Shown here one piece after another: positions 3,097-37,851 of a DNA stretch of 49,052 bases. The translations under genes and the position numbers were made by a program. Below the pieces are notes generated by a model, which saw only the letters and a list, made by a program, of their open reading frames with translations, was not told the origin of the DNA and searched no databases. Numbering within the stretch: the first letter of the stretch is position 1; the number at the start of each line of letters is the position of its first letter. Source of the DNA: Candidatus Eisenbergiella pullistercoris (GTDB lineage: Bacteria; Bacillota; Clostridia; Lachnospirales; Lachnospiraceae); contig DXDD01000166.1 in assembly GCA_019115665.1 (NCBI GenBank), forward strand, positions 1-49,052, read 5' to 3'.

Positions 3097-3696
3097 TGGA
3101 TGCGCTGCAGAGACCCGGTCGGACGCAGGCGGGGCGGTTCGGCTGACCAGATGCAGACGGGGGGCGGCTGATCAGACGCTGCCGGGGTGGGCGATTGCTC
3201 AGACCATCGGGGCAGCCCGGGCAGACTCCTCAGGGACGGTTAAAAATGAAAATTTGTATTCTGTAACCGTATGAAAGTGGTCCGGTACGGTTCAAAATAA
3301 AAGTTTTGGAGTTTTTGCCGTAGGATTTTGCTGCCCTGTACGGTAGAAAATGGAATTTGGGGCTTTCTGACCGTAGTCGGACGGATTTTTCCCTTTTTCG
3401 GGAAAGACGACAAAGACAGAAGCAGTCAGGAGCCGGGCCCCGCGCCTGCCGGCCGGGCGGCAGGCAGGAACCCGCAGCCGCACGGCAGTCCGCATCCGCA
3501 CAGCAGGCCGAAACGCACGGCAGGCCGCAGCCGCACGGCAGTCCGAAGCGCACAGTACCGCAGCCGCACAGCAGGCCGCAGCCGCATGCGGCGCGGGATT
3601 GACAGGCGCGCCGCAGAGGCGTAAACTGCAAGGGATCTTTCAGAAAACAGAAAAGAAAAGAGCCGCCTCGCGGCGGCGGAAACCGAGGAAACGAAC
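3097..3696. other. 600-bp gene-free region with two repeat types
   Basis: No convincing gene. It contains a three-unit palindrome array (3233-3376) and then a GC-rich stretch (3473-3592) of roughly 20-bp units variously reading CCGCAGCCGCACGGCAG and CCGCACAGCAGGCCG. Open frames here are repeat-derived. The ribosome binding site of the next gene is at its right end. Confidence 0.8.
3233..3376. repeat. Palindrome array A (3 units)
   Basis: Three imperfect palindromes of about 39 bp, ending at 3271, 3323 and 3376. Each opens with GACGG or GTACGG and closes with CCGTA(G); the middle is AT-rich (AAAATGAAAATTT-like). Spacers are 13-14 bp, giving a period of 52-53 bp. Same family as arrays B-E. Confidence 0.85.
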
Positions 3697-4140
3697 ATGC
3701 TTCGCAAGATGACGATCGAGGATTATGAAAATGTGAGCGCGCTGTGGCATAAGATCAAGGGCTTTTCCATCCGCAGCATCGATGATTCCAGGGAAGGGGT
3801 GGAGCGCTTCCTGAGACGAAACCCGGATACCAGTGTGGTCGCCATTGAGGACGGCAGAGTGGTGGGCGCGATCCTGTGCGGCCACGACGGCAGGAGAGGC
3901 TGTCTGTATCATGTGTGCGTGGATCCGGAGTACCGGATGCGCGGCATCGGAAAGTCCATGGTGGTGTTCTGCATGAATGCTCTGAAGCAGGAGAATATCA
4001 GCAAGGTGTCTCTCATTGCCTTTACCAGGAACGATATCGGAAACATGTTCTGGAAGACCATCGGCTGGACGAAGCGGGAAGATCTGAATTATTACGATTT
4101 TGTCCTGAATGAAAAAAACATCGAGCGGTTCAATGAATAA
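3697..4140 (+). CDS. GNAT-family N-acetyltransferase
   Basis: A 147-residue single-domain acetyltransferase using acetyl-CoA. The acetyl-CoA loop is visible as VDPEYRMRGIGKSM (the R/Q-x-x-G-x-G/A signature) at about residues 76-89, and the last strand carries the usual aromatic residues (GWTKREDLNYYDF). The start has a GAGGAAACG ribosome binding site. It lies 39 bp upstream of argJ in the arginine operon. A short GNAT here could serve as an N-acetylglutamate synthase, as small stand-alone GNATs do in some bacteria, but ArgJ can already supply that activity and the substrate cannot be told from sequence. Confidence 0.85.
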   Translation: MLRKMTIEDYENVSALWHKIKGFSIRSIDDSREGVERFLRRNPDTSVVAIEDGRVVGAILCGHDGRRGCLYHVCVDPEYRMRGIGKSMVVFCMNALKQENISKVSLIAFTRNDIGNMFWKTIGWTKREDLNYYDFVLNEKNIERFNE

Positions 4141-4179
4141 TGGAATGCTGCCCTGCGGGCAGCGGAAAAAGGAGTAGAT

Positions 4180-5403
4180 ATGAAGCACATCACAGGCGGG
4201 GTGACCGCGGCGAAGGGATTTGAAGCGGCCGGCGCCGAGGCGCGGGTCAAATATCAGAACAGAAAGGACATGGCGATGGTGTTCAGCCGCACGCCATGCC
4301 GGGCGGCAGGAGTGTTCACCAGCAACGTGGTGAAGGCGGCGCCGGTGGTCTGGGACCGGGAGATCGTGGAAAAGAAGGCTGCGGTCCATGCGGTGGTGGC
4401 CAATTCCGGGATCGCCAACGCATGTACGGGAGAGCAGGGAAGACAGTACTGCAGACAGACCGCGCAGGCTGCGGCGGAAGCGCTTGGGATCCCGGAGGAT
4501 TCCGTCCTGGTAGCGTCCACGGGCGTGATCGGGATGCAGCTTCCCATGGACCGGATCACGGAGGGCGTGAAGGCGCTGGCGGGAGCGCTTTCCGATACGG
4601 AGGACGCAGGCCGGGAGGCGGCGGAAGCCATCATGACCACGGACACCCATTCCAAACAGGCGGCGGTCACCGTGGAGCTTTCCGGAAAGACGGTCACCGT
4701 CGGCGGCATGGCCAAGGGGAGCGGCATGATCCATCCCAATATGTGCACCATGCTCGCTTTTGTGACCACGGACGCGGCGATTTCCGGAGAACTTCTGCAG
4801 GAGGCGCTGCGGGCGGATGTGACGGACACCTTCAACATGATCTCCGTGGACGGGGATATGTCCACCAACGACACCCTGCTGGCGCTGGCAAACGGCTGTG
4901 CGGGCAATCCTGAGATCACGGAAAAAAATGAGGATTACCGCCTTTTCTGCGAGGCCCTGCATGAGGTGAACGTGACGCTTGCGAAAATGCTTGCGGGAGA
5001 CGGGGAGGGGGCTACGGCCCTGTTTGAGTGTCATGTGATCCATGCGGACACGAAGGAGAACGCCCGGACGCTGGCGAAGTCCGTCATCTGCTCCAGCCTG
5101 ACCAAGGCGGCCATCTTCGGCCATGACGCCAACTGGGGAAGGATCCTCTGCGCGCTCGGGTATTCCGGCGTGCAGTTTGATCCGGAAGCCATCGAGCTTT
5201 TCATCGAAAGCGAAGCAGGCCGGCTTCTGATCTATCAGAACGGAAGCGCGGCGGATTACAGCGAGGAAGAAGCCACCCGCATCCTGTCCTGTCCGGAGGT
5301 CACGGCTCTGGTGGACATGAAGACGGGAGAGGCGGAGGCGACAGCCTGGGGCTGCGACCTTTCCTATGATTATGTAAAGATCAACGCGGACTACCGGTCC
5401 TGA
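4180..5403 (+). CDS. argJ: Bifunctional ornithine acetyltransferase / N-acetylglutamate synthase
   Basis: Transfers the acetyl group from N-acetylornithine to glutamate, so the pathway can run as a cycle. Members that also use acetyl-CoA prime the cycle. The 407-residue precursor cleaves itself into alpha and beta chains before a conserved threonine; here the site is KGSGMIHPNMCTMLAF, with Thr190 as the nucleophile. A cysteine replaces the more usual alanine before it, a variant I believe is common in Clostridia. Strong AAAGGAG ribosome binding site. Lies between the GNAT gene and argB. Confidence 0.95.
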   Translation: MKHITGGVTAAKGFEAAGAEARVKYQNRKDMAMVFSRTPCRAAGVFTSNVVKAAPVVWDREIVEKKAAVHAVVANSGIANACTGEQGRQYCRQTAQAAAEALGIPEDSVLVASTGVIGMQLPMDRITEGVKALAGALSDTEDAGREAAEAIMTTDTHSKQAAVTVELSGKTVTVGGMAKGSGMIHPNMCTMLAFVTTDAAISGELLQEALRADVTDTFNMISVDGDMSTNDTLLALANGCAGNPEITEKNEDYRLFCEALHEVNVTLAKMLAGDGEGATALFECHVIHADTKENARTLAKSVICSSLTKAAIFGHDANWGRILCALGYSGVQFDPEAIELFIESEAGRLLIYQNGSAADYSEEEATRILSCPEVTALVDMKTGEAEATAWGCDLSYDYVKINADYRS

Positions 5404-5519
5404 GCGCGAAAAAGAGGCGCAGTCCTGAGCAGGGCTCTGAAAAAGCGCGCGACAAAAAGACGCAGGACGAAAAGACCGGGTAAAAAGCATGCCGCAGAGC
5501 GCGGCGGAAGGAAACGGAT

Positions 5520-6404
5520 ATGGAACAGAGGGAAATGGATCAGGTGATGCAGAAAGCGTCGGTGCTTATCGAGGCGCTTCCCTACATCCAGAAATTCAAC
5601 AGAAAGATCATCGTGGTAAAATACGGCGGCAGCGCCATGAGCAATGAGGAGCTGCAGAAAAATGTGATCAAGGACGTGACCCTTTTAAAGCTGGTCGGCT
5701 TCAAGCCCATCATCGTGCACGGCGGCGGAAAGGCCATCAGCCGCTGGGTGGAAAAGGTGGGGAAGGAACCCGCTTTCGTCAACGGGCTGCGGGTCACGGA
5801 TGAGGAGACTATGGAGATCGCGGAGATGGTCCTTGGCCGGGTCAACAAGAATCTGGTGACCATGGTGGAGGAACTGGGCGTGAAGGCCGTCGGCATCAGC
5901 GGCAAGGACGGCGGCCTCCTGAGAGTGGAAAAGAAGTATTCGGACGGAAAGGATATCGGTTTTGTGGGAAACATCACCCAGGTGGACCCCAAAGTGATCT
6001 ATGACCTTCTGGAAAAGGATTTTCTGCCCATCGTCGCGCCCATCGGCCTGGATGAGCATTTTCAGACCTACAATATCAACGCGGACGACGCGGCCTGCGC
6101 CATCGCGAAGGCTGTGGGCGCAGACAAGCTGGTATTCCTGACGGATATCGAGGGGCTGTACCGGGATATTAACGACAAATCCACCTTTATCTCCAGACTG
6201 ACGGCCAGCCAGGCGGAGGAGCTGATCGCCGGCGGCGTGATCGGGGGCGGCATGCTTCCCAAGCTTGGCAACTGCACCTCCGCCATCAGAAACGGCGTCA
6301 ACCGGGTGCATATTCTGGACGGACGGATCCCCCACTGCATGCTGCTGGAGATCTTCACCAATCAGGGAATCGGAACGGCCATCATTCAGGACGGAGATAC
6401 CTGA
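5520..6404 (+). CDS. argB: Acetylglutamate kinase
   Basis: Phosphorylates N-acetylglutamate with ATP, the second step of ornithine synthesis and in many bacteria the arginine-sensitive one. The amino-acid-kinase fold is clear: VVKYGGSAM near residue 32, the glycine-rich [10 protein letters not shown] loop near 62, and the C-terminal GGMLPKL motif. The N-terminal segment before the fold ([20 protein letters not shown]) matches the helix found in arginine-inhibited hexameric kinases, so feedback inhibition is plausible. 294 residues is normal. The last 18 bp of the gene, including the stop, are repeated 35 bp downstream. Confidence 0.96.
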
Positions 6405-6439
6405 CGGGACGATGCGCCTGACAGGACGGAGATACCTGA
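6387..6439 (+). repeat. 18-bp direct repeat spanning the argB stop
   Basis: CAGGACGGAGATACCTGA occurs at 6387-6404, where its TGA is the argB stop, and again at 6422-6439 in the gap before argD. It looks like a local duplication of the gene end. Confidence 0.9.
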
Positions 6440-6464
6440 GTCAGAAAAAAAGGAGCAGACGGGC

Positions 6465-7667
6465 ATGAGCGAACAGATGAAGCAGTATATAGACGAGGCG
6501 GAGGCAGCGCTGCTGCATACCTACAACCGGTATCAGGTGGTGCTGGATCATGGCGACGGCGTGCATCTTTACGACACGGACGGAAAGCGCTATCTGGATT
6601 TCGTGGCTGGCATCGCGGTGTTTGCGCTTGGCTATAACAACCGGGAATACAACGATGCGCTGAAGGCGCAGATCGATAAGGTGATCCATACCTCCAACTA
6701 TTATTACAACGTGCCGGCCATCGAGGCGGCAAAATGCATCAAAAAGGCTTCCGGCATGGACCGGGTGTTTTTTACCAACAGCGGAGCGGAGGCCGTTGAG
6801 GGCGCGCTGAAGGCGGCCAGAAAATACGCGTACCTGAAGGATGGGCGCACGGATCATGAGATCATCGCCATGAACCATTCCTTCCACGGAAGGACCTTTG
6901 GGGCGCTTTCCGTAACCGGAAATCCCCATTACCGGGAGGCGTTCGAGCCCATGATCGGAAATATCCGGTTTGCGGAGCTGAACGATTTTGACAGCGTGAT
7001 GGAACAGGTGAACGACCGTACCTGCGCCGTCATTCTGGAAACCGTACAGGGCGAGGGCGGCATCCATCCCGCGGACGGAGAATTTTTAAAGAAGCTGCGC
7101 GCGCTCTGTGACGAGCGGGATATCCTGCTGATCCTGGACGAGATCCAGTGCGGCATGGGACGGACCGGGACCATGTTCGCCTGGCAGCGTTATGGCGTGA
7201 AGCCGGACATCATGACCATGGCAAAGGCCCTGGGCTGCGGCGTGCCGGTGGGAGCGTTCGCGATGACGGAGAAGGTGGGGGCCCATTCCCTGACAAGCGG
7301 GGACCACGGCACCACCTACGGAGGCAATCCGCTGGCCGGGGCTGCCGTCTGCAAGGTGTTCGAGCTGTTTGAAAAGGAACACATCCTGGAAAATGTAAAC
7401 CGGGTGGGAGATTATCTGGGAGAAAAGCTGGAGAAGCTGGCGCAGAGCTATGATTTCATCGAGGAAAGCCGGGGAATCGGCCTGCTCAGAGGCCTTGCCT
7501 GCTCCATTCCCGTGGGGGACATCATCAGCCGTGCGCTGGAGAAGGGACTGATCCTCATCAACGCGGGGAGCAATATCATCCGTTTCGTTCCGCCTCTTGT
7601 GATTTCGGAAGGGGATGTGGATGAAATGATCCGTATCCTCACGGAATGTCTGGATGAAACGGTATAA
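6465..7667 (+). CDS. argD: Acetylornithine aminotransferase
   Basis: PLP-dependent class-III transaminase converting N-acetylglutamate semialdehyde and glutamate to N-acetylornithine and 2-oxoglutarate. Of 400 residues, FTNSGAEAVEGALK (about 103-116) binds the cofactor phosphate, LDEIQCGMGRTG (224-235) holds the ring-binding aspartate, and Lys254 in MTMAKALG is the Schiff-base lysine. Start ATG at 6465; the stop lies in the ribosome binding site of the next gene, 10 bp before its start. Last recognised arginine gene of the operon; argF and argH are not in the window. Confidence 0.95.
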   Translation: MSEQMKQYIDEAEAALLHTYNRYQVVLDHGDGVHLYDTDGKRYLDFVAGIAVFALGYNNREYNDALKAQIDKVIHTSNYYYNVPAIEAAKCIKKASGMDRVFFTNSGAEAVEGALKAARKYAYLKDGRTDHEIIAMNHSFHGRTFGALSVTGNPHYREAFEPMIGNIRFAELNDFDSVMEQVNDRTCAVILETVQGEGGIHPADGEFLKKLRALCDERDILLILDEIQCGMGRTGTMFAWQRYGVKPDIMTMAKALGCGVPVGAFAMTEKVGAHSLTSGDHGTTYGGNPLAGAAVCKVFELFEKEHILENVNRVGDYLGEKLEKLAQSYDFIEESRGIGLLRGLACSIPVGDIISRALEKGLILINAGSNIIRFVPPLVISEGDVDEMIRILTECLDETV

Positions 7668-7677
7668 GGAGAACTGC

Positions 7678-9207
7678 ATGAAGAAAAAGGAAACAAAGGA
7701 AAAACACAGCCGCAGATTTTCTCTGCCCTCCAGGATCCTTGCCGTGGCCGCCGTTCTTGCGGCCGCGGCGCTTCTGCTTTATTTCGGGATCGGGAGCGAC
7801 CGGCTGGCGAACCTGGCTCCGATCCCGGATAACGCGCTGGTGGATAAGCCGACGCTCAATCTGTGGTATACCGACGAAACCCTTTCGGACTTTCTGGCCG
7901 CCGCGGCTCTGGATTTTTCGGAAGACAGCGAGGTGCGCGTGATCCCCAGACTGGTATCCGGGCTGGAATATCTGGAAAGCATCAACGAAGCCTCCCTGAC
8001 CACCAACATGATCCCGGACGTCTATATCATCGGAAACGACAGCCTGGAAAAAGCGTGGTTGTCCGGACTTGCCGCGGAGATCCGGGATGAGGAGGGCTAT
8101 GTTTCTGAGAAAAATTTCCCGGAAACGGCGCTTTCCGCCGTGACCTGCGAGGGACACCGGATCGGCTATCCCTTTTATTATGAGACCAGCGCGCTGGTCT
8201 ATAATCTGACCTATCTGGAAGAAGCCGCCGCTGACCAGCTGCAGGCGGAGGCGGACGCCATCGCCGGGCAGGAAGCCATGGCGGCTCTGGATGAAAACGG
8301 GGAGCCTCCTGCGGCGGAAGGGGAGATTTCTTCGGAAGGACAGACACCCTCCTCCGAAGCGCAGCTTACGGAAAGAACACAGGAGCTGGTCCCGCAGACC
8401 ATCGAGGACATCCTGGCCTTTGCGGACGGCTATAACGCGCCGGAGCAGGTGGAAGCCGTCTTTTCCTGGGACGTTTCGGACGTTTTTTACAACTACTTTT
8501 TTCTGGGAAATTATGTGAACGTGGGCGGCCGGGACGGAGACGATGAAACGAAGATTGATATCTACAATCTGGACGCCATCCGATGCCTGGAGGCCTATCA
8601 GGAGCTGACGCAGTATTTTTCCATCGACCCGGAGGAGGTCAGCTATGAATCCGTGGCCCAGGATTTTCTGGATGGAAAGCTGGTGTTTACCATTGCGACC
8701 ACGGATATGGTTTCCCGTCTGGAGCAGGCGTCTGCAGACGGCAGCTTCCCCTACGCCTGGGGCGTCGCGCGCGTCCCGGATATCGACGGCGAGCTGATCA
8801 CCCGGAGCCTTTCCGTGACCAGCGCCGTCGTGGTAAACGGCTACAGTGAAAAAAAGGATACGGCAAACGCGTTCGCCCGTTACCTGACGCAGACAGCGGC
8901 GCAGAAGCTTTATGAAAGCACGGGAAAGCTGCCGGCGGATACCGGTATCGCTCTTCCGTGCGAACAGGCGGAGATGTTCGCGCAGGAATATGCGGCGTCG
9001 GTGCCCATCCCCAAGATGATGACCACGAGCAATTACTGGGTGCAGATGGAGATCGCCTTTACCCGCGCCTGGAACGGCGAGGAGGTTTCCGCCGTGCTGC
9101 AGGAGATTTCCGAACAGATCATGACGCAGGTGACAGGGGAAAGCTATACGGAAGAATACATCCAGCCGCCGCAGGAGGAGACGGAGAGCAGCGCTCCCGT
9201 GGAATAG
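7678..9207 (+). CDS. Orphan extracellular solute-binding protein, membrane-anchored
   Basis: Looks like a family-1 (maltose/sugar type) ABC substrate-binding protein. After a basic stretch (KKKETKEKHSRR) comes one hydrophobic segment at about residues 20-37 with no lipobox, so it is probably a signal anchor. The mature part begins LNLWYTDETLSDFL, the typical first beta strand of binding proteins. A low-complexity acidic insert (about residues 190-235, rich in E, A, S, P) interrupts the lobe, and the C-terminus is a short E/S tail. The start at 7678 has AAGGAG seven bases upstream. No ABC permease or ATPase is adjacent, so its transporter is unknown. It follows argD at 10 bp and may be co-transcribed. 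Confidence 0.75.
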   Translation: MKKKETKEKHSRRFSLPSRILAVAAVLAAAALLLYFGIGSDRLANLAPIPDNALVDKPTLNLWYTDETLSDFLAAAALDFSEDSEVRVIPRLVSGLEYLESINEASLTTNMIPDVYIIGNDSLEKAWLSGLAAEIRDEEGYVSEKNFPETALSAVTCEGHRIGYPFYYETSALVYNLTYLEEAAADQLQAEADAIAGQEAMAALDENGEPPAAEGEISSEGQTPSSEAQLTERTQELVPQTIEDILAFADGYNAPEQVEAVFSWDVSDVFYNYFFLGNYVNVGGRDGDDETKIDIYNLDAIRCLEAYQELTQYFSIDPEEVSYESVAQDFLDGKLVFTIATTDMVSRLEQASADGSFPYAWGVARVPDIDGELITRSLSVTSAVVVNGYSEKKDTANAFARYLTQTAAQKLYESTGKLPADTGIALPCEQAEMFAQEYAASVPIPKMMTTSNYWVQMEIAFTRAWNGEEVSAVLQEISEQIMTQVTGESYTEEYIQPPQEETESSAPVE

Positions 9208-9271
9208 GATTTCGGATTTCCGGACAGAATAGAGACAAGAACATTCTGGAAGGAAAGGCGGAACGAATTTT

Positions 9272-9712
9272 ATGTGGGGTCTGATCATTGCGCTCCTGTC
9301 CGGCGCGCTGATGAGCGTGCAGGGAGTTTTCAACACACAGGTGACAAAGGCGTCCGGCATCTGGGCGGCAGGCTGCTTCGTGCAGCTTTCCGCCCTGCTT
9401 GTCAGCCTGGCGGCCTGGGCCGTATCGGAGAGAAGCTCCTTTTCGGCGGTCCTTCAGGTACAGCCCAGATACATGCTGCTGGGCGGCGCCATCGGAGCCT
9501 TCATCACCTATACCGTGATCAAAAGCATGGACATGCTCGGGCCCGCCCGGGCGGTCATGCTCATCGTGGTGGCGCAGCTTCTGGTGGCCTATCTGATCGA
9601 GCTGCTCGGCATGTTCGGCGTGGAGAAGGCCGCCTGGGACTGGCGGAAGGCCGTCGGAATGGCGTTTGCCATCGCGGGGATCGTGGTGTTCAAGTGGGAG
9701 CCGGGAAAGTGA
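9272..9712 (+). CDS. DMT-superfamily YdcZ-type membrane protein
   Basis: A 146-residue, very hydrophobic protein with four to five predicted membrane helices. The N-terminal pattern (GLIIALLSGALMSVQGVFN) and the central GAIGAFITYTVIKSMDMLGP fit the DUF606/YdcZ half-size members of the drug/metabolite transporter superfamily, which usually act as pairs. Substrate unknown. It ends one base before a perfect 30-bp palindrome that probably closes the arginine transcription unit. Confidence 0.8.
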   Translation: MWGLIIALLSGALMSVQGVFNTQVTKASGIWAAGCFVQLSALLVSLAAWAVSERSSFSAVLQVQPRYMLLGGAIGAFITYTVIKSMDMLGPARAVMLIVVAQLLVAYLIELLGMFGVEKAAWDWRKAVGMAFAIAGIVVFKWEPGK

Positions 9713-10636: not shown

Positions 10637-11628
<992 letters not shown>

Positions 11629-11655
<27 letters not shown>

Positions 11656-13742: not shown

Positions 13743-14502
13743 GGTTTTTTCACCGGCTTTCAATTTGCTCTTATTGTATTTAAAAACTGCGGACAATGCA
13801 ACCATGAAAATCCCTGCTCCTTTTTTCCACATCGGGAAAGGTTGCTGATCGCAGTTACCGGGTCCTTTGATTTGACGGCGTCTTGAACTCCGCCATCGCG
13901 TGGACGCTTCCGGAGGCGCAAAGCTTTTGCAGGAAGCCTTTCGGGGATGACGGAAGTTTTTCATGTTTTTCCGGCTGCCGGAACTGGGGCCGGTATGAGA
14001 AAACCGCCTGCTGCGGGCGATATTGCCTCTTACTACAGGAAGTTAACCGGTTTCTCTGATTTCTGCCGTAGGAAATTGCTGTTCACTACGGGAAAAAACC
14101 TGATTTTCCGGATTTTTGCCGTAGAAAAATCCCACTCACTGCGGGTAAAACCCCGGTTTTCCAGATTTCTGCCGCAGAAGCGGTTCCTGTTCGCTGGTAA
14201 GCCGGCGAACAGGAACCCGGCCTGCCATTCCAGGTCGTCTGTGGCGATGGACAGGCCGGCTTCCGGCCGGAATGATTTTCCTGCGTGCCGGTCAGCAAGC
14301 AGCCGGCCCTGGCCTGAACCGGAAAATTCATGTTTGGCGTCCGGCAGGATGTCCCGGCAGGGTTTAAATCCGGCTTTTCCGTTTTGGGGCTGCATATAGG
14401 CAGAGGGATTCCGCGGAAGGCTCCGCGAAATGTTTTTCAGCGAGAATCTGCACATCATTCCATCGGGATTCCTGCCCGTAAAAAATGTCTTCTGAAACGG
14501 CC
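13743..14502. other. 760-bp region without a convincing gene
   Basis: Holds palindrome array B (14033-14177), a perfect 13-bp hairpin immediately after it (14182-14194 paired with 14205-14217, arms GGTTCCTGTTCGC), further GC-rich inverted repeats (for example GGCCGG-CTT-CCGGCC near 14253) and no start with a good ribosome binding site. A 162-codon reverse frame runs through the array and is regarded as spurious. Confidence 0.7.
14033..14177. repeat. Palindrome array B (3 units)
   Basis: Units at 14033-14071, 14086-14124 and 14139-14177, each exactly 39 bp with a 53-bp period. The arms are CTACGGG ... CCGTAG. In the third unit both arms change together to CTGCGGG ... CCGCAG, a paired substitution that keeps the palindrome. 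Confidence 0.88.
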
Positions 14503-22873: not shown

Positions 22874-22921
22874 AACGGCCGCCGTTCCGGCCGGAGCCTG
22901 GCCGGCCGCTGTCCCGCTGCT

Positions 22922-23055
22922 TTTCGCGGGGGCTTTCACGGAACCCTTCCGCGGGGGCTTCCATAGAACCCTTTCGCGGGGGCTTTCACGGAACCCTTCC
23001 GCGTGGGGGTTCCGCAGGGCCTTCCACGGAACCCTTCCGCGTGGGGTTCCATGGA
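22922..23055. repeat. GC-rich 25-bp tandem array after the nucleoside kinase gene
   Basis: About five units of the form TTYCGCGKGGGCTTYCAYGGAACCC, some shortened. It lies 50 bp after the stop codon and directly before palindrome array C. Confidence 0.8.
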
Positions 23056-23069
23056 ACTCTTCCATCCAT

Positions 23070-23382
23070 GTACGGTTGAAAAACGAAAAAATGGCTTTGG
23101 AACCGTACAAAAATTCATTTTTTACGGATCCAATTCCGAAAAAGGCTGTTCTGAACCGTACTTTTTATGGCGCAATACGGTAAAAATATCGAAAAATCTG
23201 TTTTTACCCGTACTGGATGGCCCAAAAGTACGGTTACAGATGAGAAAATCAGGTATTGAACCGTACTAATGACAGGCAGCACACCAAAAAGTACGGTTAA
23301 GGATCGGAAAATCCTGTTTTTTAACCGTCATTTCAGAGTTTTTGTACGGTTATACAGTGCAGATTCTCATTTTGAACCGTAT
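23070..23382. repeat. Palindrome array C (6 units)
   Basis: Units at 23070-23108, 23123-23161, 23175-23213, 23228-23266, 23291-23329 and 23344-23382, all 39 bp. Arms are GTACGGTT ... AACCGTAC. Spacing is 52-53 bp except between units 4 and 5, where the spacer is 24 rather than 14 bp (63-bp period). That long spacer resembles the left end of the IS at 34057. Confidence 0.9.
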
Positions 23383-23542
23383 TGGAGCATCCTGCCGGGT
23401 GTCAGGCAGTTTTTTTCGATAGGGGAAAAGGAAGCCGCCGCAGTATTTTCCCGCCCCATGAAAAGCAGTCCCGTCCGCCGGTATTCCGCCCGGAGTATGA
23501 TTCTGCTCAGAGCATGATTCCGCCCGGAGCATGAAATGGGGC

Positions 23543-23580: not shown

Positions 23581-23962
23581 GAAAATGAGCAGGATGAATG
23601 ATCGCGGCCGTCCGTCCCTCCATGCGGAGGGCGGCGGGTGAGGAAAGTCCGGGCTTCGCAGGGCAGGATGCCGGATAACGTCCGGTGGAGGCGACTCCAA
23701 GGCCAGTGCAACAGAAATGTACCGCCCGCGGTTTCCCGGGAACGGGATCCCGTGTGGTAAGGGTGGAAAGGCAGAGTAAGAGACTACCGCCCGTCTGGCA
23801 ACAGGCGGGGCACATGTAAACCCCATCCGAAGCAAGACCAGACAGAAAGCGACAGGCTTGCCCGGCCTGCTTTCAGGTAGGTCGCTTGAGGCTGCCGGCA
23901 ACGGCAGTCCTGGATAGATGATCATTCACGACATAACCCGGCTTACAGTCCTGCTCATTTTC
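23581..23962 (+). ncRNA. rnpB: RNase P RNA (catalytic subunit)
   Basis: Ribozyme that trims the 5' leader of tRNA precursors. Conserved segments occur in order: GAGGAAAGTCCGGGCTTCGC (P4 5' strand region), GGATAACGTCCGG, AGGCCAGTGCAACAGAAA, GGGTGGAAAGG, GTAAGAGACTACCGC, GTAAACCCCA, GAAGCAAGACC, AGGTAGGTCGCTTGAGG and ACATAACCCGGCTTAC. The ends pair as a 14-bp helix P1 (23581-23594 with 23949-23962). P1 is followed by TTTTTT, so the closing helix also serves as the terminator. The RNA is about 380 nt. Reading frames overlapping it are spurious. Confidence 0.97.
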
Positions 23963-30969: not shown

Positions 30970-31793
30970 CAGAAATATTCGCGTATCTGGGTGAAATGCT
31001 CACCTATCCCTTCATGCAGCGCGCCTTCCTGGCGGGGATCCTCATTTCCGTCTGCGCTTCCCTTCTGGGCGTCAGCCTGGTGCTGAAGCGCTATTCCATG
31101 ATCGGCGACGGCCTTTCCCATGTGGGCTTCGGCGCTCTGGCCGCAGCGAGCGCTCTTCACCTTGCGCCCCTGGCCGTGGCGGTTCCGGTGGTGATCCTTG
31201 CGGCCTTTGTGCTGCTTCGCCTCAGTGAGAACGGAAAGCTGAAGGGAGACGCGGCGGTGGCCATGTTTTCCACCGGAGCCCTGGCCGCCGGCGTCATGAT
31301 CGTTTCCGTGACGACCGGCATGAACGCGGATCTAAACAGCTACCTTTTCGGCTCCATCCTCGCCATGAGCAGAAGCGACGTTGTGCTGAGCGTCGCCCTG
31401 GCCGCCGCAGTGCTGATTCTGTATCTGGTCTTCTACAACCAGCTCTTTGCAGTCACCTTTGACCCGGTCTTTGCCAGAGCGACCGGCGTGCGCACCGGAT
31501 TTTTCAACAGTCTCCTCGCGGTTCTTACGGCGGTGACCGTGGTGCTCGGCATGCGCATGATGGGAGCGCTTTTGATCTCCAGCCTCATCATTTTCCCGGC
31601 GCTGACCGCCATGCGCGTCTGCCGCCGCTACCGAACGGTGATCCTTGTATCGGCCCTGCTTTCCGTTTCCGGCTTCGCGCTTGGCATGACGGTTTCCTTC
31701 CTGTTCGCCACGCCGGCAGGCGCGAGCATCGTGGTCGTTGACATTCTTTTTTACTGTATTTTTGCGGCTCTGGGGGCGGCCCGCTCCCGCTGA
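30966..31793 (+). CDS. znuB: Zinc ABC transporter permease
   Basis: 275-residue ABC-3 family permease with about eight membrane helices. Typical motifs are LVLKRYSMIGDGLSHVGFGA near residue 40 and GMRMMGALLISSLIIFPAL near 195-215. The start lies within the last codons of znuC. Last gene of the zinc cluster; downstream is a 16-bp tandem array between convergent genes. Confidence 0.93.
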   Translation: MTEIFAYLGEMLTYPFMQRAFLAGILISVCASLLGVSLVLKRYSMIGDGLSHVGFGALAAASALHLAPLAVAVPVVILAAFVLLRLSENGKLKGDAAVAMFSTGALAAGVMIVSVTTGMNADLNSYLFGSILAMSRSDVVLSVALAAAVLILYLVFYNQLFAVTFDPVFARATGVRTGFFNSLLAVLTAVTVVLGMRMMGALLISSLIIFPALTAMRVCRRYRTVILVSALLSVSGFALGMTVSFLFATPAGASIVVVDILFYCIFAALGAARSR

Positions 31794-31827
31794 CCGTTTC
31801 CTAATGACGCAGGCGCTTCAGAGAAAA

Positions 31828-31922
31828 GGGCCGTCAGAGAATGGAGCCGCCAGATAATGGAACCGCCGGATAAAGGATCCGCCGGATAAAGGAGCCGTCA
31901 GATAAGCGGTCTGTCAGATATA
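31828..31922. repeat. 16-bp tandem array spanning the nitrite/sulfite reductase stop
   Basis: Six units of about 16 bp (GAGCCGCCAGATAATG, GAACCGCCGGATAAAG, GATCCGCCGGATAAAG and similar). The unit at the right end contains the stop codon of the leftward reductase gene (31914-31916). Confidence 0.88.
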
Positions 31923-33470
31923 TTTTCCGGCCAGCTCTTCCAGCTTTCCGGGATTGGCGTCCTTCCAGGCAAAGAAGGAGAGTCCGCTTTTTGCCACCAT
32001 TTTTCCGAGTTCGACCAGAAATGCGGGGATGTCTGTTTCCAGGATGGCGCCGAGCTGGGTCCCGATGCAGGCGTCAGCCTGTCCTTCACGGCCGTTTACA
32101 TGAAGGAAGAATGCGGGATGCGCGACCTTGTCGATCATTTTTACCGTGCCGTTGAAGCCGATGGCGCCGGTCTGATGGGTGCCGCAGGAGGAAGTGCAGC
32201 CGGAAATGTGGATCTGCGGCAGGGCGTCTGCCGGGAGATCTGCCTCGCGTACGGCCTTTATGCAGGCGGCAAGAAGACCCTGGGAGTCTCTGGGGCCGAC
32301 CTGACAGGTGGTTCCTCCGATACAGCTGACGGAGGCTTCAAACAGATTTTCCGCGCCTCCCTCCGTCGCCTTCAGGACGGTCTGCGCTTCAGAACCGGTG
32401 AGGTTGATGATGTAGACCGTTTCGTCCGGAGAAAGACGAAGCTCCACATCCCGCATGTCGCGAATCACTTCATAAATGGAAGCGAACCAGGTAATGGGAG
32501 GCTGGCCGCCGACAGGATGATAGAGGACGCTGTAAAGGCCGTCCTGCTTCTGCGGGATCACGCGGAAGCCCTCCGCCGTGCTTCCGTCTCCCTGTTTGGC
32601 AAGGGGCGTTTCGGCCACGGAAAGCTTCAGATCCTCGCCGGAAGCGAAAACCTCGTCCAGCTTTTCCAGATATGCTTTCTTATAGGCTTCCGGTCCTCCC
32701 AGCGCCTCCTGCATATAGCGGGTTCGCGCCTTCGCGCGGGACTCATAATTGCCGTAGGCCAGGAAGGTCAGCCACATGGCCTTGATATAATACCGGATAT
32801 CGGAAGGCTCTATGGCTTCGGCGACCAGAACGCCGAGACGGGGATTGTTTCCCAGCCCTCCGGCGCTGTAGACATCAAATTTTCCGTCGCTGCGCGCGGC
32901 AAAGCCCAGATCCCGGTAGGTAGCGTGGGTGATGTTCCTGGGAGAATTGGAGAACGCAACCTTCAGCTTGCGGGGCATTTTTTCCGCATGGATAAAGGTC
33001 ATCAGATATTCGCCTGCCGCTTCCGCCCAGGGAAGGGTATTGAAGCACTCGCCCCGCTCTACGCCGGCAAGAGGAGAGCACATGACGTTTCTGGGAAAAT
33101 CCCCGCCGCCGCCCAGAGTAACGATCCCTGCATCCAGCGCCGCCGACATGATCTCATAGGCGTCCTCTCCGCTCAGGTCGTGAAGCTGGATGGTCTGGCA
33201 GGTGGTGAAATGCGCCCGCTTAACCTGATGGGCCGCGATGGAATCGGCGATGAATTTCAGCTTTTCCTTCGTGACGCGGCCCGCAGGCATGCGAAGGCGC
33301 AGCATGCTCGCCTTTCCGCCCTTCTGCGCGTAGCTGCCGAAGCGCCCGGAAAAGGACTTATAGGCGCCCTTGTCCATCTCGCCCGCGTAGAAAGCCTCTG
33401 TCTTTTCCCTGAATTCCTTCATCTCCTCACGGATCGAAGAAATCTCAAGCTGTTTCGTGTTTTCTGCCAT
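31914..33470 (-). CDS. Siroheme nitrite/sulfite reductase
   Basis: Six-electron reduction of sulfite to sulfide or nitrite to ammonium using siroheme linked to a [4Fe-4S] cluster. 518 residues. The cluster cysteines appear as CIGGTTCQVG (C-x5-C) and SGCTSSCG (C-x3-C), the standard C-x5-C-n-C-x3-C arrangement, and the ferredoxin-like half-domains are present (HFTTCQTIQLHDL, GGLGNNPRLGVLV). Sequence alone does not decide sulfite or nitrite, and no electron-donor or siroheme gene is adjacent. The ATG at 33470 follows AGAGAGG; a reverse TATAAT at 33537-33532 and a GGGCCG...CGGCCC leader hairpin lie upstream. The frame is open for another 96 codons upstream, regarded as noncoding. Confidence 0.9.
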   Translation of the reverse strand: MAENTKQLEISSIREEMKEFREKTEAFYAGEMDKGAYKSFSGRFGSYAQKGGKASMLRLRMPAGRVTKEKLKFIADSIAAHQVKRAHFTTCQTIQLHDLSGEDAYEIMSAALDAGIVTLGGGGDFPRNVMCSPLAGVERGECFNTLPWAEAAGEYLMTFIHAEKMPRKLKVAFSNSPRNITHATYRDLGFAARSDGKFDVYSAGGLGNNPRLGVLVAEAIEPSDIRYYIKAMWLTFLAYGNYESRAKARTRYMQEALGGPEAYKKAYLEKLDEVFASGEDLKLSVAETPLAKQGDGSTAEGFRVIPQKQDGLYSVLYHPVGGQPPITWFASIYEVIRDMRDVELRLSPDETVYIINLTGSEAQTVLKATEGGAENLFEASVSCIGGTTCQVGPRDSQGLLAACIKAVREADLPADALPQIHISGCTSSCGTHQTGAIGFNGTVKMIDKVAHPAFFLHVNGREGQADACIGTQLGAILETDIPAFLVELGKMVAKSGLSFFAWKDANPGKLEELAGKYI

Positions 33471-33615
33471 TCTGCTACCTCTCTTCCTTTTTGGGGTTAT
33501 GGAAAAATGAAGGGCCGGTACGGCCCATGGAATTATACTTATCATACGTGAAAGCGTGGGGATATGCAAGCTTTTTCGGCTGGAGGGTTCATACTGAGGG
33601 TTCTTACCGAGGGTT

Positions 33616-33663
33616 CCTACCCGCCGTTCCATTTCCCGGCCGGGAAATGGAACGGCGGGTAGG
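33616..33663. repeat. Perfect 48-bp palindrome
   Basis: Two 24-bp arms (33616-33639 and 33640-33663) are exact reverse complements with no spacer; the centre reads TTCCCGGCCGGGAA. No T-run follows on either strand. It could extrude as a cruciform or fold as a long RNA hairpin. Confidence 0.95.
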
Positions 33664-33791
33664 TGGCTGGCGGGTATGTGGTTGGCGGGTATGGGCCGGC
33701 GGATAGGGGCCGTCCGGGGAGGGTCCCTGAGAAATGGGATGTTCCGGGTCTCTTTCATGGGCCGGGAAGGCGGTGATATGCTACCCGCGGT

Positions 33792-34039
33792 GTACGGTTA
33801 GAAATATCAATTTCCTGTCCTGGATCCGTACAAAAAAAGTTCCTGTACGGTTACAGATGAGGTTTTTGGCTTTATTACCGTACTATTTTGGCTTTTGTAT
33901 GGGCGGAAATGAGAATTTTCGGAATTTTGCCGTAGAATTTTGGTCTTGTACGGGTAGAAATGAGTTTTTCTTGATTTTTGCCGTAGAAAATAAGGGTCTT
34001 GTACGGGTAAAAATGAGACTTTTGAGTTTTTTACCGTAG
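33792..34039. repeat. Palindrome array D, left part (5 units)
   Basis: Units at 33792-33831 (40 bp), 33845-33883, 33897-33935, 33948-33986 and 34001-34039. The first two have GTACGGTT...CCGTAC arms, the next three GTACGGGT-like...CCGTAG arms. Period 52-53 bp. The array resumes at 35769 after the IS. Confidence 0.9.
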
Positions 34040-34126
34040 AAAATGACTGTTTGGTGTGCTACCTGTCAATAGGACAATGAAAAATAATAAAGTCCTTTCT
34101 GCCAGCCGGTACCGGCTGGCAGGCTC

Positions 34127-34960
34127 TTACGCTGCCTGCAATACATACTCATGATACTTCATCGGTGACATGACCTGCAGCTTCCTCTGTATCCTCTCAT
34201 TATTGTAGTACTCTATATATTCTTCGATGCTCCCCACCAGATCCTCCCGGTTGGTAAAACGCCTCCCGTAATACATCTCCCTCTTCAGGATCCCCCAGAA
34301 TCCTTCCATCGGGCCATTATCTATGCAGCGCCCTACCCGCGACATGCTCTGCCTCATCCGGTTCTCTTCCAGCCTCTTTCGGAATGACGGGCTTGTGTAC
34401 TGGAACCCCCGGTCCGAATGGACCAGCGGATGCGCTCCCGCCTCTTTCCCCACCGCTTCGTCTATGGTAGCCATGACCAGCTCATTATCATTATGGTTTC
34501 GGATCTTATACGCCACCAGCCTCCGGTCACATAGATCCAGTATGGCACTCAGGTACACCTTGTGCACCTCCGTCCCTGTGTAATACTTGAACTCCGTCAC
34601 ATCCGTTACCCATTTCTCATTCGGCTTCTCCGCGTGGAATTCCCTTGCCAGGAGGTTCTCCGCCGTGTACTTTGCTGACCGCTCCCCCCTCGTGCAGCCC
34701 CTGGGCCTCCATTTGACAGTGGACTGGATCCCCAGCTTCCGGCACAGGCGCAGTACCCGCTTGTCATTGACCTTTCTCCCGTAACGCGCCGCCAGCTCAT
34801 CCCGGATCCGGCGGTATCCCATGTCCGGATGGGCGGTATGGATCTGGCGGATGAGCGCACAGAGCTCCCCGTTTTCCCTTTCATTTCCGCTTATGGGATG
34901 TTTCAGCCAACGGTAATAAGCCGAACGTGTCACACCGAAATATCCGCACATCCGCTCCAC
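34127..34960 (-). CDS. IS3-family transposase OrfB (DDE integrase domain)
   Basis: Catalytic half of the transposase. About 277 residues from the first usable start: an HTH_21-type segment (GVTRSAYYRWL, DMGYRRIRDEL), then an rve domain with the DDE triad visible as WVTDVTEFKY (Asp), VHSDRGFQYTS (Asp) and GPMEGFWGILKREMYY (Glu). Its frame is open upstream to the A7 run at 35056-35062 inside orfA, so the active protein is probably an OrfAB fusion made by -1 frameshifting rather than by starting at 34960. Confidence 0.9.
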   Translation of the reverse strand: MERMCGYFGVTRSAYYRWLKHPISGNERENGELCALIRQIHTAHPDMGYRRIRDELAARYGRKVNDKRVLRLCRKLGIQSTVKWRPRGCTRGERSAKYTAENLLAREFHAEKPNEKWVTDVTEFKYYTGTEVHKVYLSAILDLCDRRLVAYKIRNHNDNELVMATIDEAVGKEAGAHPLVHSDRGFQYTSPSFRKRLEENRMRQSMSRVGRCIDNGPMEGFWGILKREMYYGRRFTNREDLVGSIEEYIEYYNNERIQRKLQVMSPMKYHEYVLQAA

Positions 34961-35019
34961 CGGATAGCTTCCTGCTTCTGACAGTTCCCGGATGGTCTGA
35001 TAGTGGCTGAAGGATCGTG

Positions 35020-35703
35020 TTAAAGAAAGGCATCCCTCCTTTCTATCTCCTGCAGTTTTTTTAACAGATCATTCTCCATCTGCAGCGCTTTCTTCTCCCG
35101 CTCCAGCTGCGCGATCCGTGCCTCCCATTCCTCTTCCCGGGTGCGGGGCGGCAGGGTGCCTGTCCGCTTCCCCCTCCGGTCCTCCAGGCCGGCTTCCCCC
35201 ATGGTCTCATACTTCTGCACCCAGTTGCGTACCTGCTGGTAGGAGCAGCCATATCTTCTGGCGGTTTCCCCATAGTTCCGTTCCCGGGCCAGGCAGTCCT
35301 TTACGATCTCAAGCCGCTCCTGCGGGGATGTCTTTTTTGCTTTCTTCATGGATGTACCTCCGGTAAAATCTCGTAATGGTTTACCTTCATTATACATCCT
35401 GATCCAATGCAGGAGAACCTCATGTGTCCGGATCCCATACTTTGTACAGATGGTATCCAGAGAACCCTGGTGATCCAGGTAGGCTTTGACTGCCTGAAGC
35501 TTTCGGTCTGCGGGATAGCGGGTCCATCCGTGTTTCTGAAAAGCGGCCGGGCCATCCACCTGATAGAGGCGGATCCAGGACTGGATAGTCCGGATATGGA
35601 CCTGGTACTTCTTTGCGGCGGAAGTCTGTGTGAGTTTTCCAGCCAGGTACTGTTCTGCCACGGTAATCTTATCGGCTGGGGCTATGGTTCTTTTTTCCGA
35701 CAT
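35020..35703 (-). CDS. IS3-family transposase OrfA (helix-turn-helix)
   Basis: 227 residues with two helix-turn-helix segments (KITVAEQYLAGKLTQTSAAK; YGETARRYGCSYQQVRNWVQ) and a C-terminal leucine-zipper-like stretch (LEREKKALQMENDLLKKLQE) that mediates multimerisation. The start at 35703 has GGAGG upstream. Near the end, TTAAAAAAAC (T-run at 35056-35062 on the top strand) is a typical slippery site; slipping back one base continues into the orfB frame with no stop. Confidence 0.9.
   Translation of the reverse strand: MSEKRTIAPADKITVAEQYLAGKLTQTSAAKKYQVHIRTIQSWIRLYQVDGPAAFQKHGWTRYPADRKLQAVKAYLDHQGSLDTICTKYGIRTHEVLLHWIRMYNEGKPLRDFTGGTSMKKAKKTSPQERLEIVKDCLARERNYGETARRYGCSYQQVRNWVQKYETMGEAGLEDRRGKRTGTLPPRTREEEWEARIAQLEREKKALQMENDLLKKLQEIERRDAFL
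35056..35062 (-). other. Programmed -1 frameshift site of the IS
   Basis: Seven A on the reverse strand, read as TTA AAA AAA C in the orfA frame. The -1 frame after it has no stop and joins orfB. OrfA ends 36 bp beyond. Confidence 0.7.
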
Positions 35704-35768
35704 AATGGGATGCCTCCTAAGCAGGTTTTTATATTTGGGTGTCCTACTTACGGGTAGCATATCAGTTT

Positions 35769-35965
35769 GTACGGGTAAAAATGGAACTTTTTGGTTTTTT
35801 ACCGTAGAAATGGCCGTTTTTGTACGGGCAAAAATAGAATTTTTGCAGTTTTTACCGTATGACCCAGTGTTTTAGTACGGATCAAAATGTCATTTTTGCG
35901 TTTGTTATCGTATCAGGGGACTTTTTGTACGGAGATAAATGAGATTTTTGATTTTCTGGCCGTAA
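35769..35965. repeat. Palindrome array D, right part (4 units)
   Basis: Units at 35769-35807, 35822-35860, 35875-35913 and 35927-35965, all 39 bp, period 52-53. The arms are GTACGGGT...ACCGTAG in the first and more diverged in the last two. Confidence 0.9.
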
Positions 35966-36012
35966 TGGGGAGGGCTGAGCCGGAAAGCTGCCGCGGTCAA
36001 GGGGGGAGGCTG

Positions 36013-36135
36013 GCCGGAAGGCCGCCATGCTGACTCGGAGGGCTACTATGTTGGGCGGAAGGCCGTCATGCTGAACCGGAGGGCTGTCATTCTGAACCGG
36101 AAAGCCGCCATGCTCAGCCGGAAGATGCTGTGCAT
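36013..36135. repeat. 21-bp tandem array downstream of lacI
   Basis: About six units alternating CCGGAAGGCCGCCATGCTGA and CGGAGGGCTGTCATTCTGAA variants. The period is three times seven but there is no start or ribosome binding site, so it is probably noncoding. Confidence 0.75.
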
Positions 36136-36223
36136 CTTCCGGCTGACGGCTGTCGCCGTATGTCCCCTCGGGCAGAACTCCCTCTGTGAGCAAGCTCACG
36201 TCGGGAGTTTTGCCCGGGGGGAC
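36116..36223 (-). terminator. Two strong hairpins after lacI
   Basis: The first, nearest the stop codon, is a 62-nt nested stem-loop (36162-36223): GTCCCC/GGGGAC, CGGGCA/TGCCCG, AACTCCC/GGGAGTT and an apical GTGAG/CTCAC, broken only by wobble pairs and a small internal loop. The second is a perfect 13-bp stem with a 3-nt loop (36116-36128 and 36132-36144). Neither has a U-tract; they may stabilise or end the lacI message. Confidence 0.5.
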
Positions 36224-36236
36224 GCATGGCTCGTAG

Positions 36237-37253
36237 TTAGACATTTTCCCGTATTCGGATGTCTATTGATGTGTAGTTGTACTCATGGGCGGGGCGCTGG
36301 CCGGTGGCGAGGTAGGTGAAGAGAAGCTCGAGGGGGAGGCTTCCCTGGGTGGAGGGCTGCTGGCAGATGGTGGCGTCGATGACGCCGTTTAAGAGCATCT
36401 CGCGGGTGGTGGGGACCTTGTCGCAGGCAATAACGGTCATGTCAGTGCGGCCGGCATCGAGAACGGCGCGGCAGCCGCCGTAGACGCCGCCGGCGGCGAA
36501 ATAAAGGGCGTTGATGTCGGGATGTTCCTCAAGCATGGACAGGGTATTGGAATAGCTCTCAAATTCATCGTCGCTGTTTTCTCTGGTGTCCAGAATGCGG
36601 ATGTCTGGATATTCGGCGCGGATCCGGTCCTGAAAGCCGGCGATGCGGTCGGTGTGGCAAAGAACGCGGGAGGAGCCTGTGATGATGCCGGCGCGGACAG
36701 GTGGCTTTCCGATCAGGTGCATCAGTCCCGCGGCAGTCTGGCCGGAACGATAGAAGTCGCAGCCCACATAGGCAAGACGGGCGGAGTTCTGGATGTCGGT
36801 ATTGGTGGTGATGACGGGAATGCCGCGGGAGTCCAGTTCATTGATTTTATCCCGGATCAGAGGATCGTTGTAGGGCGTAAGAACGATGCCGCAGGCGCCG
36901 TCTTCCGCCAGCCGGTCCAGCGCGGCCAGCTGTGCTTCAAGACTGAAGTTCACACGGGAAACGGAGACGCTGCAGTTATAATCGGAAAGTTCCCGGGACT
37001 TTTTCTGCACGCCAAGCAGGACCTCGTCAAAGAAAGGATTGCCGTTGTCAAAAAGGAGAACGCCGATCTTGAGATTCCGCTTTCTGGCGGCGAGGACGAT
37101 GCCGGCGCGGTTTGGCCGGTACTGAAGCGCCTGGGCGATCTCCAGCACCTTTCGCTCGGTCTGTTCGCTGACCGCGCCGCGTCCGTTGAGGACACGGTCC
37201 ACCGTTCCTCTGGAAACTCCTGCCAGTTCTGCGATTTCTTTGATGGTAGCCAC
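36237..37253 (-). CDS. LacI-family sugar-responsive regulator
   Basis: 338 residues. N-terminal helix-turn-helix ATIKEIAELAGVSRGTVDRV with the hinge LNGRGAVSEQT, then a periplasmic-binding-type ligand domain (KIGVLLFDNGNPFFDEVLLG; ITTNTDIQNSARLAYVGCDF). The ligand domain resembles ribose-type binding proteins. The start is the GTG at 37253 after GGAGGGAT, which gives the canonical N-terminus; the open frame upstream is not conserved-looking. It diverges from the kinase/isomerase operon, and identical 18-bp operators precede both units, so it probably represses that operon and itself until a sugar or sugar phosphate binds. Confidence 0.9.
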   Translation of the reverse strand: MATIKEIAELAGVSRGTVDRVLNGRGAVSEQTERKVLEIAQALQYRPNRAGIVLAARKRNLKIGVLLFDNGNPFFDEVLLGVQKKSRELSDYNCSVSVSRVNFSLEAQLAALDRLAEDGACGIVLTPYNDPLIRDKINELDSRGIPVITTNTDIQNSARLAYVGCDFYRSGQTAAGLMHLIGKPPVRAGIITGSSRVLCHTDRIAGFQDRIRAEYPDIRILDTRENSDDEFESYSNTLSMLEEHPDINALYFAAGGVYGGCRAVLDAGRTDMTVIACDKVPTTREMLLNGVIDATICQQPSTQGSLPLELLFTYLATGQRPAHEYNYTSIDIRIRENV

Positions 37254-37377
37254 CCGGATCCCTCCTGTCTTTTGCCCTGCGCGGCAGCAGGCGGCTTTCC
37301 GGCCGGCCGCCTGACGCCGGATAGCACCCGCTCCGCCTGTTTCTGCGCGCCTGCATGATAAGGGCAGTCTTTTGTTT

Positions 37378-37406
37378 ACCGTAGCATAAACGGGCGGCAA
37401 AGTCAA
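37378..37406 (-). promoter_or_regulatory. Probable lacI promoter
   Basis: Reverse-strand TTGACT (37406-37401) with TACGGT 17 bp downstream (37383-37378). The -10 box is weak. The operator copy at 37423-37440 lies just upstream of the -35 box. Confidence 0.4.
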
Positions 37407-37422
37407 TTTGAAATCAGGGGAA

Positions 37423-37440
37423 AACGTGCACGGGCACGAA
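37423..37440. promoter_or_regulatory. LacI-family operator, copy 1 (lacI side)
   Basis: AACGTGCACGGGCACGAA, identical over 18 bp to the copy at 38107-38124. The core CGTGC-ACGG-GCACG is an inverted repeat of the GTGCAC type used by LacI-family proteins. It is found only near the two divergent promoters. Confidence 0.7.
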
Positions 37441-37540
37441 GGGAATGCTCCTTTTTTTACTTTTCGCGGGGCGGGAAACTACTGCGATTGATTCCTTTCC
37501 CCATATCTGCGCTCTGTTTGACGCCGGACAGAATGCTCCG

Positions 37541-37851
37541 ATACGGTTTAAAATGAGAATCTGCATTGTATAACCGTACAAAAAGTCCGAAGTGACGGTT
37601 AAAAAAAGGATTTTCCAATCCTTAACCGTACTTTTTGACCACTATTTCGTCACCAGGACAGTTAAATACCTGATTTTCTTATCTGTAACCGTACTTTCTG
37701 GCTATCCAGTACGGTCAAAAACAGAATTTTTGATTTTTTAACCGTATCAGACCATGAAAAGTACGGTTCAGAATGGCATTTTCCGGAATTGGATCCGTAA
37801 AAAACGGATTTTGTACGGTTACAAATCCCTTTTTTGCGTTTTCAACCGTAA
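37541..37851. repeat. Palindrome array E (6 units)
   Basis: Units at 37541-37579, 37593-37631, 37656-37694, 37709-37747, 37761-37799 and 37813-37851, all 39 bp with GTACGGTT...AACCGTAC-type arms. The period is 52-53 bp except between units 2 and 3, where a 24-bp spacer gives 63 bp. The second unit also has an inner AAGGAT...ATCCTT stem. Confidence 0.9.

Follow-up and report, generated by a model that had tools for sequence, protein, structure and literature searches.

The 49 052-nt contig DXDD01000166.1 of Candidatus Eisenbergiella pullistercoris (assembly GCA_019115665.1; this whole stretch is called the window below) carries 27 palindromic units of 39 bp in five intergenic arrays, A–E. The arrays are probably best explained as phased double-stranded DNA sites read by a cognate protein of ~265 amino acids, which resembles PD-(D/E)XK nucleases and whose gene lies elsewhere in the same genome. 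From the sequences compared, the best reading would be a Lachnospiraceae system of orthogonal protein–array pairs. We also lean, though only slightly, towards regarding it as an undescribed class: single-gene proteins would join a diversifying beta-sheet DNA-reading part to a PD-(D/E)XK nuclease-like domain, each having a private half-site array upstream of its own gene plus a network of chromosomal arrays; orthogonal pairs would share genomes, and the reading domain, its half-site and the period (5, 6, 7 or 8 turns) would vary in concert under a constant lattice rule. No description of such an array–nuclease system was found in the openly licensed literature, which does not prove its absence from print.

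The unit counts of the original prediction (A 3, B 3, C 6, D 5 + 4 and E 6) were reproduced, coordinates shifting by at most 1–2 bases (Table 1). Their common length also held: 21 inverted end pairs (up to 3 mismatches) occur in the window at length 39, 19 of them in the arrays and 2 outside, whereas each of the 40 other lengths from 20 to 60 gives between 0 and 10 (median 2). A search of the whole genome (3.29 Mb in 178 contigs; completeness 89.9%) returned 173 copies of a relaxed unit and 39 of a strict one, the reversed-pattern control giving 0 in both cases; among the 295 genomes searched from the order, 4 contain the strict unit. Lengths and spacings were measured in 36 stretches of the genome selected for containing matches (the window and L124–L158). 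The unit is 39 or 40 bp long in 206 out of 208 cases (lengths of 37–42 were permitted, other ones being penalised by one mismatch), and its spacing, about which the original prediction was silent, is as fixed as its length, since 157 of 164 gaps measure 12–15, 23–24 or 35 bp. Units consist of inverted half-sites, TACGGTT and AACCGTA, 3 helical turns apart, and repeat mostly every 5 turns (~53 bp). The main distances between half-sites at the loci of this genome (21/22, 31/32, 52/53, 62/63, 74, 83–85, 94/95, 105/106, 114–116 and 126/127 bp) correspond to integral numbers of 10.5-bp turns; some other values scatter, and the overlapping loci L001–L004 inflate the counts. In other genera the arrays have units of 38–40 bp and gaps of mostly 13–14 bp. 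Several contigs terminate in or near arrays (e.g. C5, C15, C26, C34, C45, C113, C142 and C174), and copy numbers in draft genomes are therefore lower bounds.

A gene tracking with the repeat, the partner for which the original prediction had proposed to look, was indeed found. It lies outside the window (G000:C126:6727–7563), with an eight-unit array 70 bp upstream, and the same gene stands 48–118 bp downstream of an array at this locus and in four other genera (L203, L205, L207 and L209). The linkage was assessed with a motif-free search based on exact 5-mers, which allowed periods of 40–94 bp and arrays within 1.1 kb, on 70 homologues taken from the upper part of the match list and not at random; two with <150 bp upstream were dropped, leaving 68. 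An array was detected upstream of 40 of the 68 and downstream of 3, compared with none in 340 shuffled sequences; a narrower search gave 35 upstream, 3 downstream and 0 out of 204. Among control genes of the own genome 35 of 357 had an upstream array, all of them forms of the own motif and in stretches that had been chosen for their arrays. A second approach was to search the family for the lattice TACGG-N26-28-CCGTA-N14-16-TACGG, which has 203 forward matches in the own genome. At least 6 forward matches were found in 15 of 397 genomes; the reversed controls of 14 gave 0, and that of G580 gave 1, in one of the orientations. A homologue (E ≤ 1e-20) is present in 13 of the 15 lattice-positive genomes versus 104 of the 382 others (P = 4.5e-6), and a close one (E ≤ 1e-98) in 11 of 15 versus 16 of 382 (P = 1.8e-11), the cut-offs (at least 6 matches; 1e-98) having been set after the counts were seen and the counts compiled by hand. 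The homologue of one lattice-positive genome (L243 in G618) is interrupted in frame by two TGA stops within its matched stretch; arrays may outlive their gene.

In the linked protein the N-terminal part is a beta-sheet region, and the C-terminal part is PD-(D/E)XK-like. Searches of Pfam and NCBIfam matched it to no family at a meaningful E-value; its C-terminal ~125 residues match the C-termini of the PADLOC PDC-S68 models (best E = 2.1e-27). Seven residues (E161, P191, D192, F193, E207, H208 and G210) are invariant in 46 out of 46 homologues, and E161, D192 and E207 would form the PD-(D/E)XK active site. The structure model (predicted local distance difference test score 91.5, predicted template modelling score 0.71) has three strands between a helix and a long helix, and then a mixed domain; judging by strand order, the N-terminal part may resemble AP2 or arm-binding sheets. 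Homologues at 1e-20, some of them perhaps partial matches, occur in 117 of the 397 family genomes. Of 299 genomes sampled across the phylum, 7 match: four are Lachnospiraceae, whose matches cover from 226 to nearly all of 262 positions, and the three outside the family match over the C-terminal half to two thirds alone, within longer frames. As far as sampled, full-length homologues thus appear confined to Lachnospiraceae.

The arrays next to homologues differ in half-site and in period. Half-sites include TACGG, TACGT, TTGAC, GTGAC, TGTAA, CCGACT, ACTAA and more. The mean periods of the 40 arrays fall at 51.5–54 (25 arrays), 62–64.5 (8), 71–74.8 (5) and 84.3–85.5 bp (2), i.e. at 5, 6, 7 or 8 turns (R = 0.888 at 10.5 bp, where the scan peaks). 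For the 15 arrays away from 53 bp R is 0.81 (P = 5.7e-5), with a flat top at 10.5–11.5; Rayleigh P-values are not true probabilities here, since 25 of the 40 periods lie near 53 and the homologues are related. The distance between unit starts can shift within one region: upstream of the homologue at L269 (G234) it is ~63 bp, then ~53 bp. Different specificities can also share a genome. In G005, which has seven paralogues, three have upstream arrays, with TTAGC every 75 bp, TACGT every 63 bp and TTACG every 51 bp, respectively; a fourth locus has an array on its far side and three paralogues show none. In G028 (L258, L313), TACGGAC-type arrays lie on both sides of one homologue, and this genome may use a half-site one or two bases away from the own one.

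Half-sites were tabulated for 33 of the 40 arrays and for L219 (L263, L266, L269, L271, L274, L284 and L285, mostly short chains, were omitted), and 29 of these 34 entered a Mantel test in which the N-terminal part was represented by A2 columns 26–105 and the nuclease part by columns 166–250. Half-site similarity tracks the N-terminal part and not the nuclease part: the likeness of half-sites correlates with N-terminal identity (rho = 0.47), and in partial tests this correlation persists when the C-terminal part is given (0.44, P = 0.001), whereas that with the C-terminal part vanishes when the N-terminal part is given (−0.11, P = 0.88). Joint inheritance of gene and array may inflate such values, and it is the N-versus-C contrast alone that speaks otherwise. 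A prediction was then borne out, namely that a TACGT array at the gene should be accompanied by TACGT lattices elsewhere in the genome. All three genomes tested that have a TACGT array at the gene contain TACGT lattices (201, 68 and 16 forward matches), compared with 0 in eight of nine comparison genomes, the own one included, and 1 in the ninth (G238), reversed controls being at most 2. The same three genomes have no forward TACGG lattice match, and one has a single reverse match.

Besides the relatedness behind the Rayleigh and Mantel values, several observations weigh against a dedicated protein–array partnership. The exact-5-mer search revealed no upstream array for 28 of the 68 homologues, a second homologue of the own genome (L248) among them; at least 5 of the 28 have <300 bp of upstream sequence on the contig. 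Three homologues have a downstream array. The distance between array and gene, short in the first five cases, amounts to several hundred base pairs elsewhere, e.g. at L236. No homologue was found in two lattice-positive genomes, G341 and G351 (84 and 89% complete). Finally, fold matches in the PDB are weak (best Foldseek E = 0.075, with the restriction enzymes DrdV and BamHI and with Bax1 among the top), and it is from motif and fold class that nuclease function is predicted; the viral library gave a better E-value, 2.6e-4, to phage proteins.

Taken as sites for the cognate protein, the arrays could work as follows. The unit would be a double-stranded DNA site whose two half-sites, TACGGTT and AACCGTA, are inverted three turns apart, and stacking of units every five (sometimes six) turns would place all half-sites on one face of the helix. 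The reader is most likely the N-terminal beta-sheet part of the ~265-residue protein, which would bind its array cooperatively along that face and regulate its own gene, the scattered arrays serving as chromosomal docking sites. Arrays would grow by local duplication of the ~53-bp unit. In this genome one array of six units was also moved by a mobile element with terminal inverted repeats, and this brought arrays C and E into the window. Permanent cutting at dozens of sites would hardly be tolerable, and so the nuclease-like domain is presumably controlled, or acts elsewhere or on special structures.

It could be argued that the arrays are mere passengers of satellite-like DNA, or of a miniature inverted-repeat transposable element (MITE) moved by a transposase specific for its terminal inverted repeats (TIRs), and that the link to the nuclease-like gene is incidental. 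Arrays C and E do lend themselves to this interpretation. They are one six-unit block in opposite orientations; among the 18 dispersed copies of this block that were compared (one truncated by a contig end), many share similarity for ~118 bp further left and 86 bp further right, bounded by inverted repeats. The result is a MITE-like element of ~0.5 kb with ends of the GTTACTTTTCAYGGGGC type, and GTTACTTTTCAYGGGG-type ends are present in both orientations, albeit degenerate in the window copies. Evidence for target-site duplication is thin: among five copies compared by eye, L136 has a perfect 8-bp duplication, and the other four have 6/8, 6/8, 5/8 and none. End pairs were found only 121, 159 and 328 bp apart, which suggests shortened copies; as to an autonomous partner with the same TIRs, the 25 end matches obtained from the draft assembly with up to one mismatch include no inverted pair more than ~520 bp apart on a single contig. 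The array C locus is empty in the relatives G665 and G666, where the alignment pieces around C lie 16 and 11 bp apart versus 659 and 619 bp here, with differing junction bases; comparison with the same-genus genome G394 was uninformative because synteny is lost past the gene. The element with array E has a copy at the orthologous place in G666. A second dispersed repeat, CATCCGGCCCATCGCGAAGCGATTGGAATGGCCGGATGCCGTTAC-like, occurs at or beside array elements in the flanks of the MITE copies at L129, L130 and L143, where two elements appear to have lost their right end to it.

Judged from these features, only C and E carry most of the marks of a MITE. The suggestion in the original prediction of a MITE-like family applies to them. 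Array D with its flanks is absent from G666, but no TIRs were seen around it by eye. Array D is interrupted by an insertion sequence which, from its gene order (a helix-turn-helix open reading frame (ORF) and an rve one), we take to belong to the IS3 family; it has 25-bp inverted repeats and a 3-bp duplication, GTT. Removing it together with one copy of the duplication leaves a linker of 13 bp, a lattice value, and D can therefore be seen as one nine-unit array split by this element. On the whole we consider it unlikely that the arrays are only passengers. The arrays of Blautia and those at L124 and L141 in the own genome are unlike the MITE block in sequence, and L156 aligns to it only weakly, yet all keep the lattice; in addition, the link to the gene recurs for 40 of the 68 homologues. 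Moreover, the 18 copies differ per pair by 0.044 in half-site columns, 0.181 in middles and 0.236 in linkers. Half-sites thus change 4–5 times more slowly than the rest, which suggests that selection acts on them after dispersal.

A second possibility is that the arrays work as RNA, as hairpins in 5′ leaders or 3′ untranslated regions, e.g. in a leader controlling the nuclease-like gene. An array transcript is indeed predicted to fold well (z = −6.8), and in the own locus no sigma-70-like site was found on the strand of the gene in L221 600–1560, a stretch that takes in the array and the interval between it and the gene. However, both strands fold alike, and spacers quantised by the helical turn have no reason to exist in RNA. 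In 121 non-redundant units the left and right arms depart from the consensus independently at positions 1–8, without compensatory change, though the power of this test is limited because the arms are nearly invariant; the exceptions are position 9 (z = 3.3) and one-base shifts at positions 7–8 (z = 2.7–2.8). Since the arms vary independently, their symmetry looks like that of two separately read half-sites and not of a paired stem. Judged by covariation and not by folding energy, a selected RNA hairpin or cruciform is unlikely, and the RNA hairpins once offered as a candidate role find no support there in spite of the strong predicted folds. An RNA role is thus weakened even given good predicted folding, and as an account of the arrays it appears quite improbable.

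That the sites belong to another host protein (a nucleoid organiser, a partition protein or a global regulator), the nuclease-like gene being one target, is very unlikely: it would accord with the intergenic position of arrays genome-wide (all 54 own-genome arrays with both neighbours lie between called genes) and with two array positions kept beside the same gene in two species of the Blautia group while the middles diverged, but the half-site tracks the N-terminal part of the nuclease-like protein specifically, the arrays upstream of three of the seven G005 paralogues each have a half-site and a period of their own, and G394, the one same-genus genome sampled, has neither the TACGG lattice nor the gene. 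Binding sites for a nucleoid or partition protein had been proposed from the window; helical phasing, independent arms and the correspondence between half-site and N-terminal part support protein sites, and the linked gene is nuclease-like and does not point to a nucleoid or partition protein.

Several known systems can be compared with the cognate protein–array pairs favoured here. According to PMC3733652, repetitive extragenic palindromic sequences (REPs), their bacterial interspersed mosaic elements and the REP-associated tyrosine transposases (RAYTs) involve intergenic palindromes of 20–40 bp, in many copies and often clustered, and a gene family flanked by the repeats. To that extent the window arrays are alike, being intergenic palindromes with a linked gene family; they differ in their independent arms, strict helical spacing and PD-(D/E)XK-like linked gene. 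REP/RAYT identity was rejected on two counts, the absence of compensatory stem changes and that of a Y1 transposase in the own genome. The REP-type transposase envisaged originally was not found: PF01797 has 0 matches in the own assembly (at the completeness given above), G394, G238 and G666, with 2 in G665 and 4 in G283. By eye, unit ends are mostly TACGG/CCGTA at both ends without a GTAG or CGTC tag; units of B and D end in CCGTAG, which contains GTAG, but within the arm. For the BOX elements of Streptococcus pneumoniae, PMC3049150 describes an interspersed boxA-boxBn-boxC arrangement in which the ends are fixed and the inner units vary in number. The C/E element is, on that description, partly similar in being modular and MITE-like; its inner units, in contrast, are phased inverted sites which are present also outside the MITE and beside the cognate gene. 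Arrays of the iteron or centromere type (F sopC, parC, plasmid iterons) are tandem, helically phased sites for an oligomerising DNA-binding protein; those described here differ by being chromosomal, at many loci and linked to a nuclease-like gene. The likeness to PDC-S68 concerns the C-terminal ~125 residues, its models having ~1200 positions versus ~265 residues and another N-terminal part in the array-linked protein.

CRISPR (clustered regularly interspaced short palindromic repeats) was rejected, in agreement with the original prediction, because the half-sites are inverted and the middles are related rather than unique spacers; no cas family was found among the ten window proteins scanned. 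A phage or plasmid origin was also rejected: a single four-core TACGG pattern had 0 matches in viral_contigs, and coverage of 80% of the linked protein is reached by no plasmid record and by 1 of 50 697 phage records (a 4.2-kb fecal contig, 32% identity).

If the proposal is true, a further repeat–protein partnership would stand beside REP/RAYT, CRISPR/Cas and parS/ParB, in Lachnospiraceae, a main animal-gut family. It would also offer a small DNA-reading domain in many natural variants of specificity, each of them matched with its site in the genomes as they stand. Questions about the recognition code, the use of phased arrays and the reason why bacteria retain a nuclease-like protein with dozens of sites would then be directly testable.

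Table 1. Arrays and associated mobile elements in the window
Feature	Coordinates	Strand	Details
Array A	3234..3376	.	3 units: 3234-3272, 3285-3323, 3338-3376; half-sites degenerate; gaps 12, 14 bp
Array B	14033..14177	.	3 degenerate units: 14033-14071, 14086-14124, 14139-14177; CTACGGG..CCGTAG; gaps 14 bp; read by eye
Array C	23070..23382	+	6 ordered units; gaps 13, 13, 14, 24, 13
Array D, part 1	33792..34039	.	5 units: 33792-33831, 33845-33883, 33897-33935, 33948-33986, 34001-34039
Array D, part 2	35769..35965	.	4 units: 35769-35807, 35822-35860, 35875-35913, 35927-35965
Array E	37541..37851	-	Six-unit block of array C, reversed orientation
MITE-like element with array C	22916..23469	+	Degenerate TIRs ~22916-22933 (hand-counted) and 23453-23469
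MITE-like element with array E	37456..37985	-	One TIR 37456-37472; other end ~37985 (hand-counted)
IS3-like insertion	34052..35764	-	Inside array D linker; ORFs 35020-35760 (helix-turn-helix), 34127-34960 (rve integrase core)

Array B is a degenerate member, missed by the pattern searches that located the other arrays. The orientation of genes around own-genome arrays (19 tandem, 9 divergent and 1 convergent, n = 29) does not differ clearly from that at all gaps ≥150 bp long in these stretches (101, 32 and 8, respectively). A crude longest-ORF caller placed ORFs over 11 of the 29 array loci; these are taken for spurious, since a codon-based caller placed none there. Three loci of Papillibacter cinnamivorans (L062, L086 and L093), presumably outside the family of the window genome, contain 41-bp GTACGGTT..AACCGTAC units as single copies and not as arrays. 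When Rfam covariance models were run over the window, RNase P alone reached its gathering score and the repeats matched no known RNA; this bacterial class A RNase P RNA lies at 23586–23961 (+), just downstream of array C.

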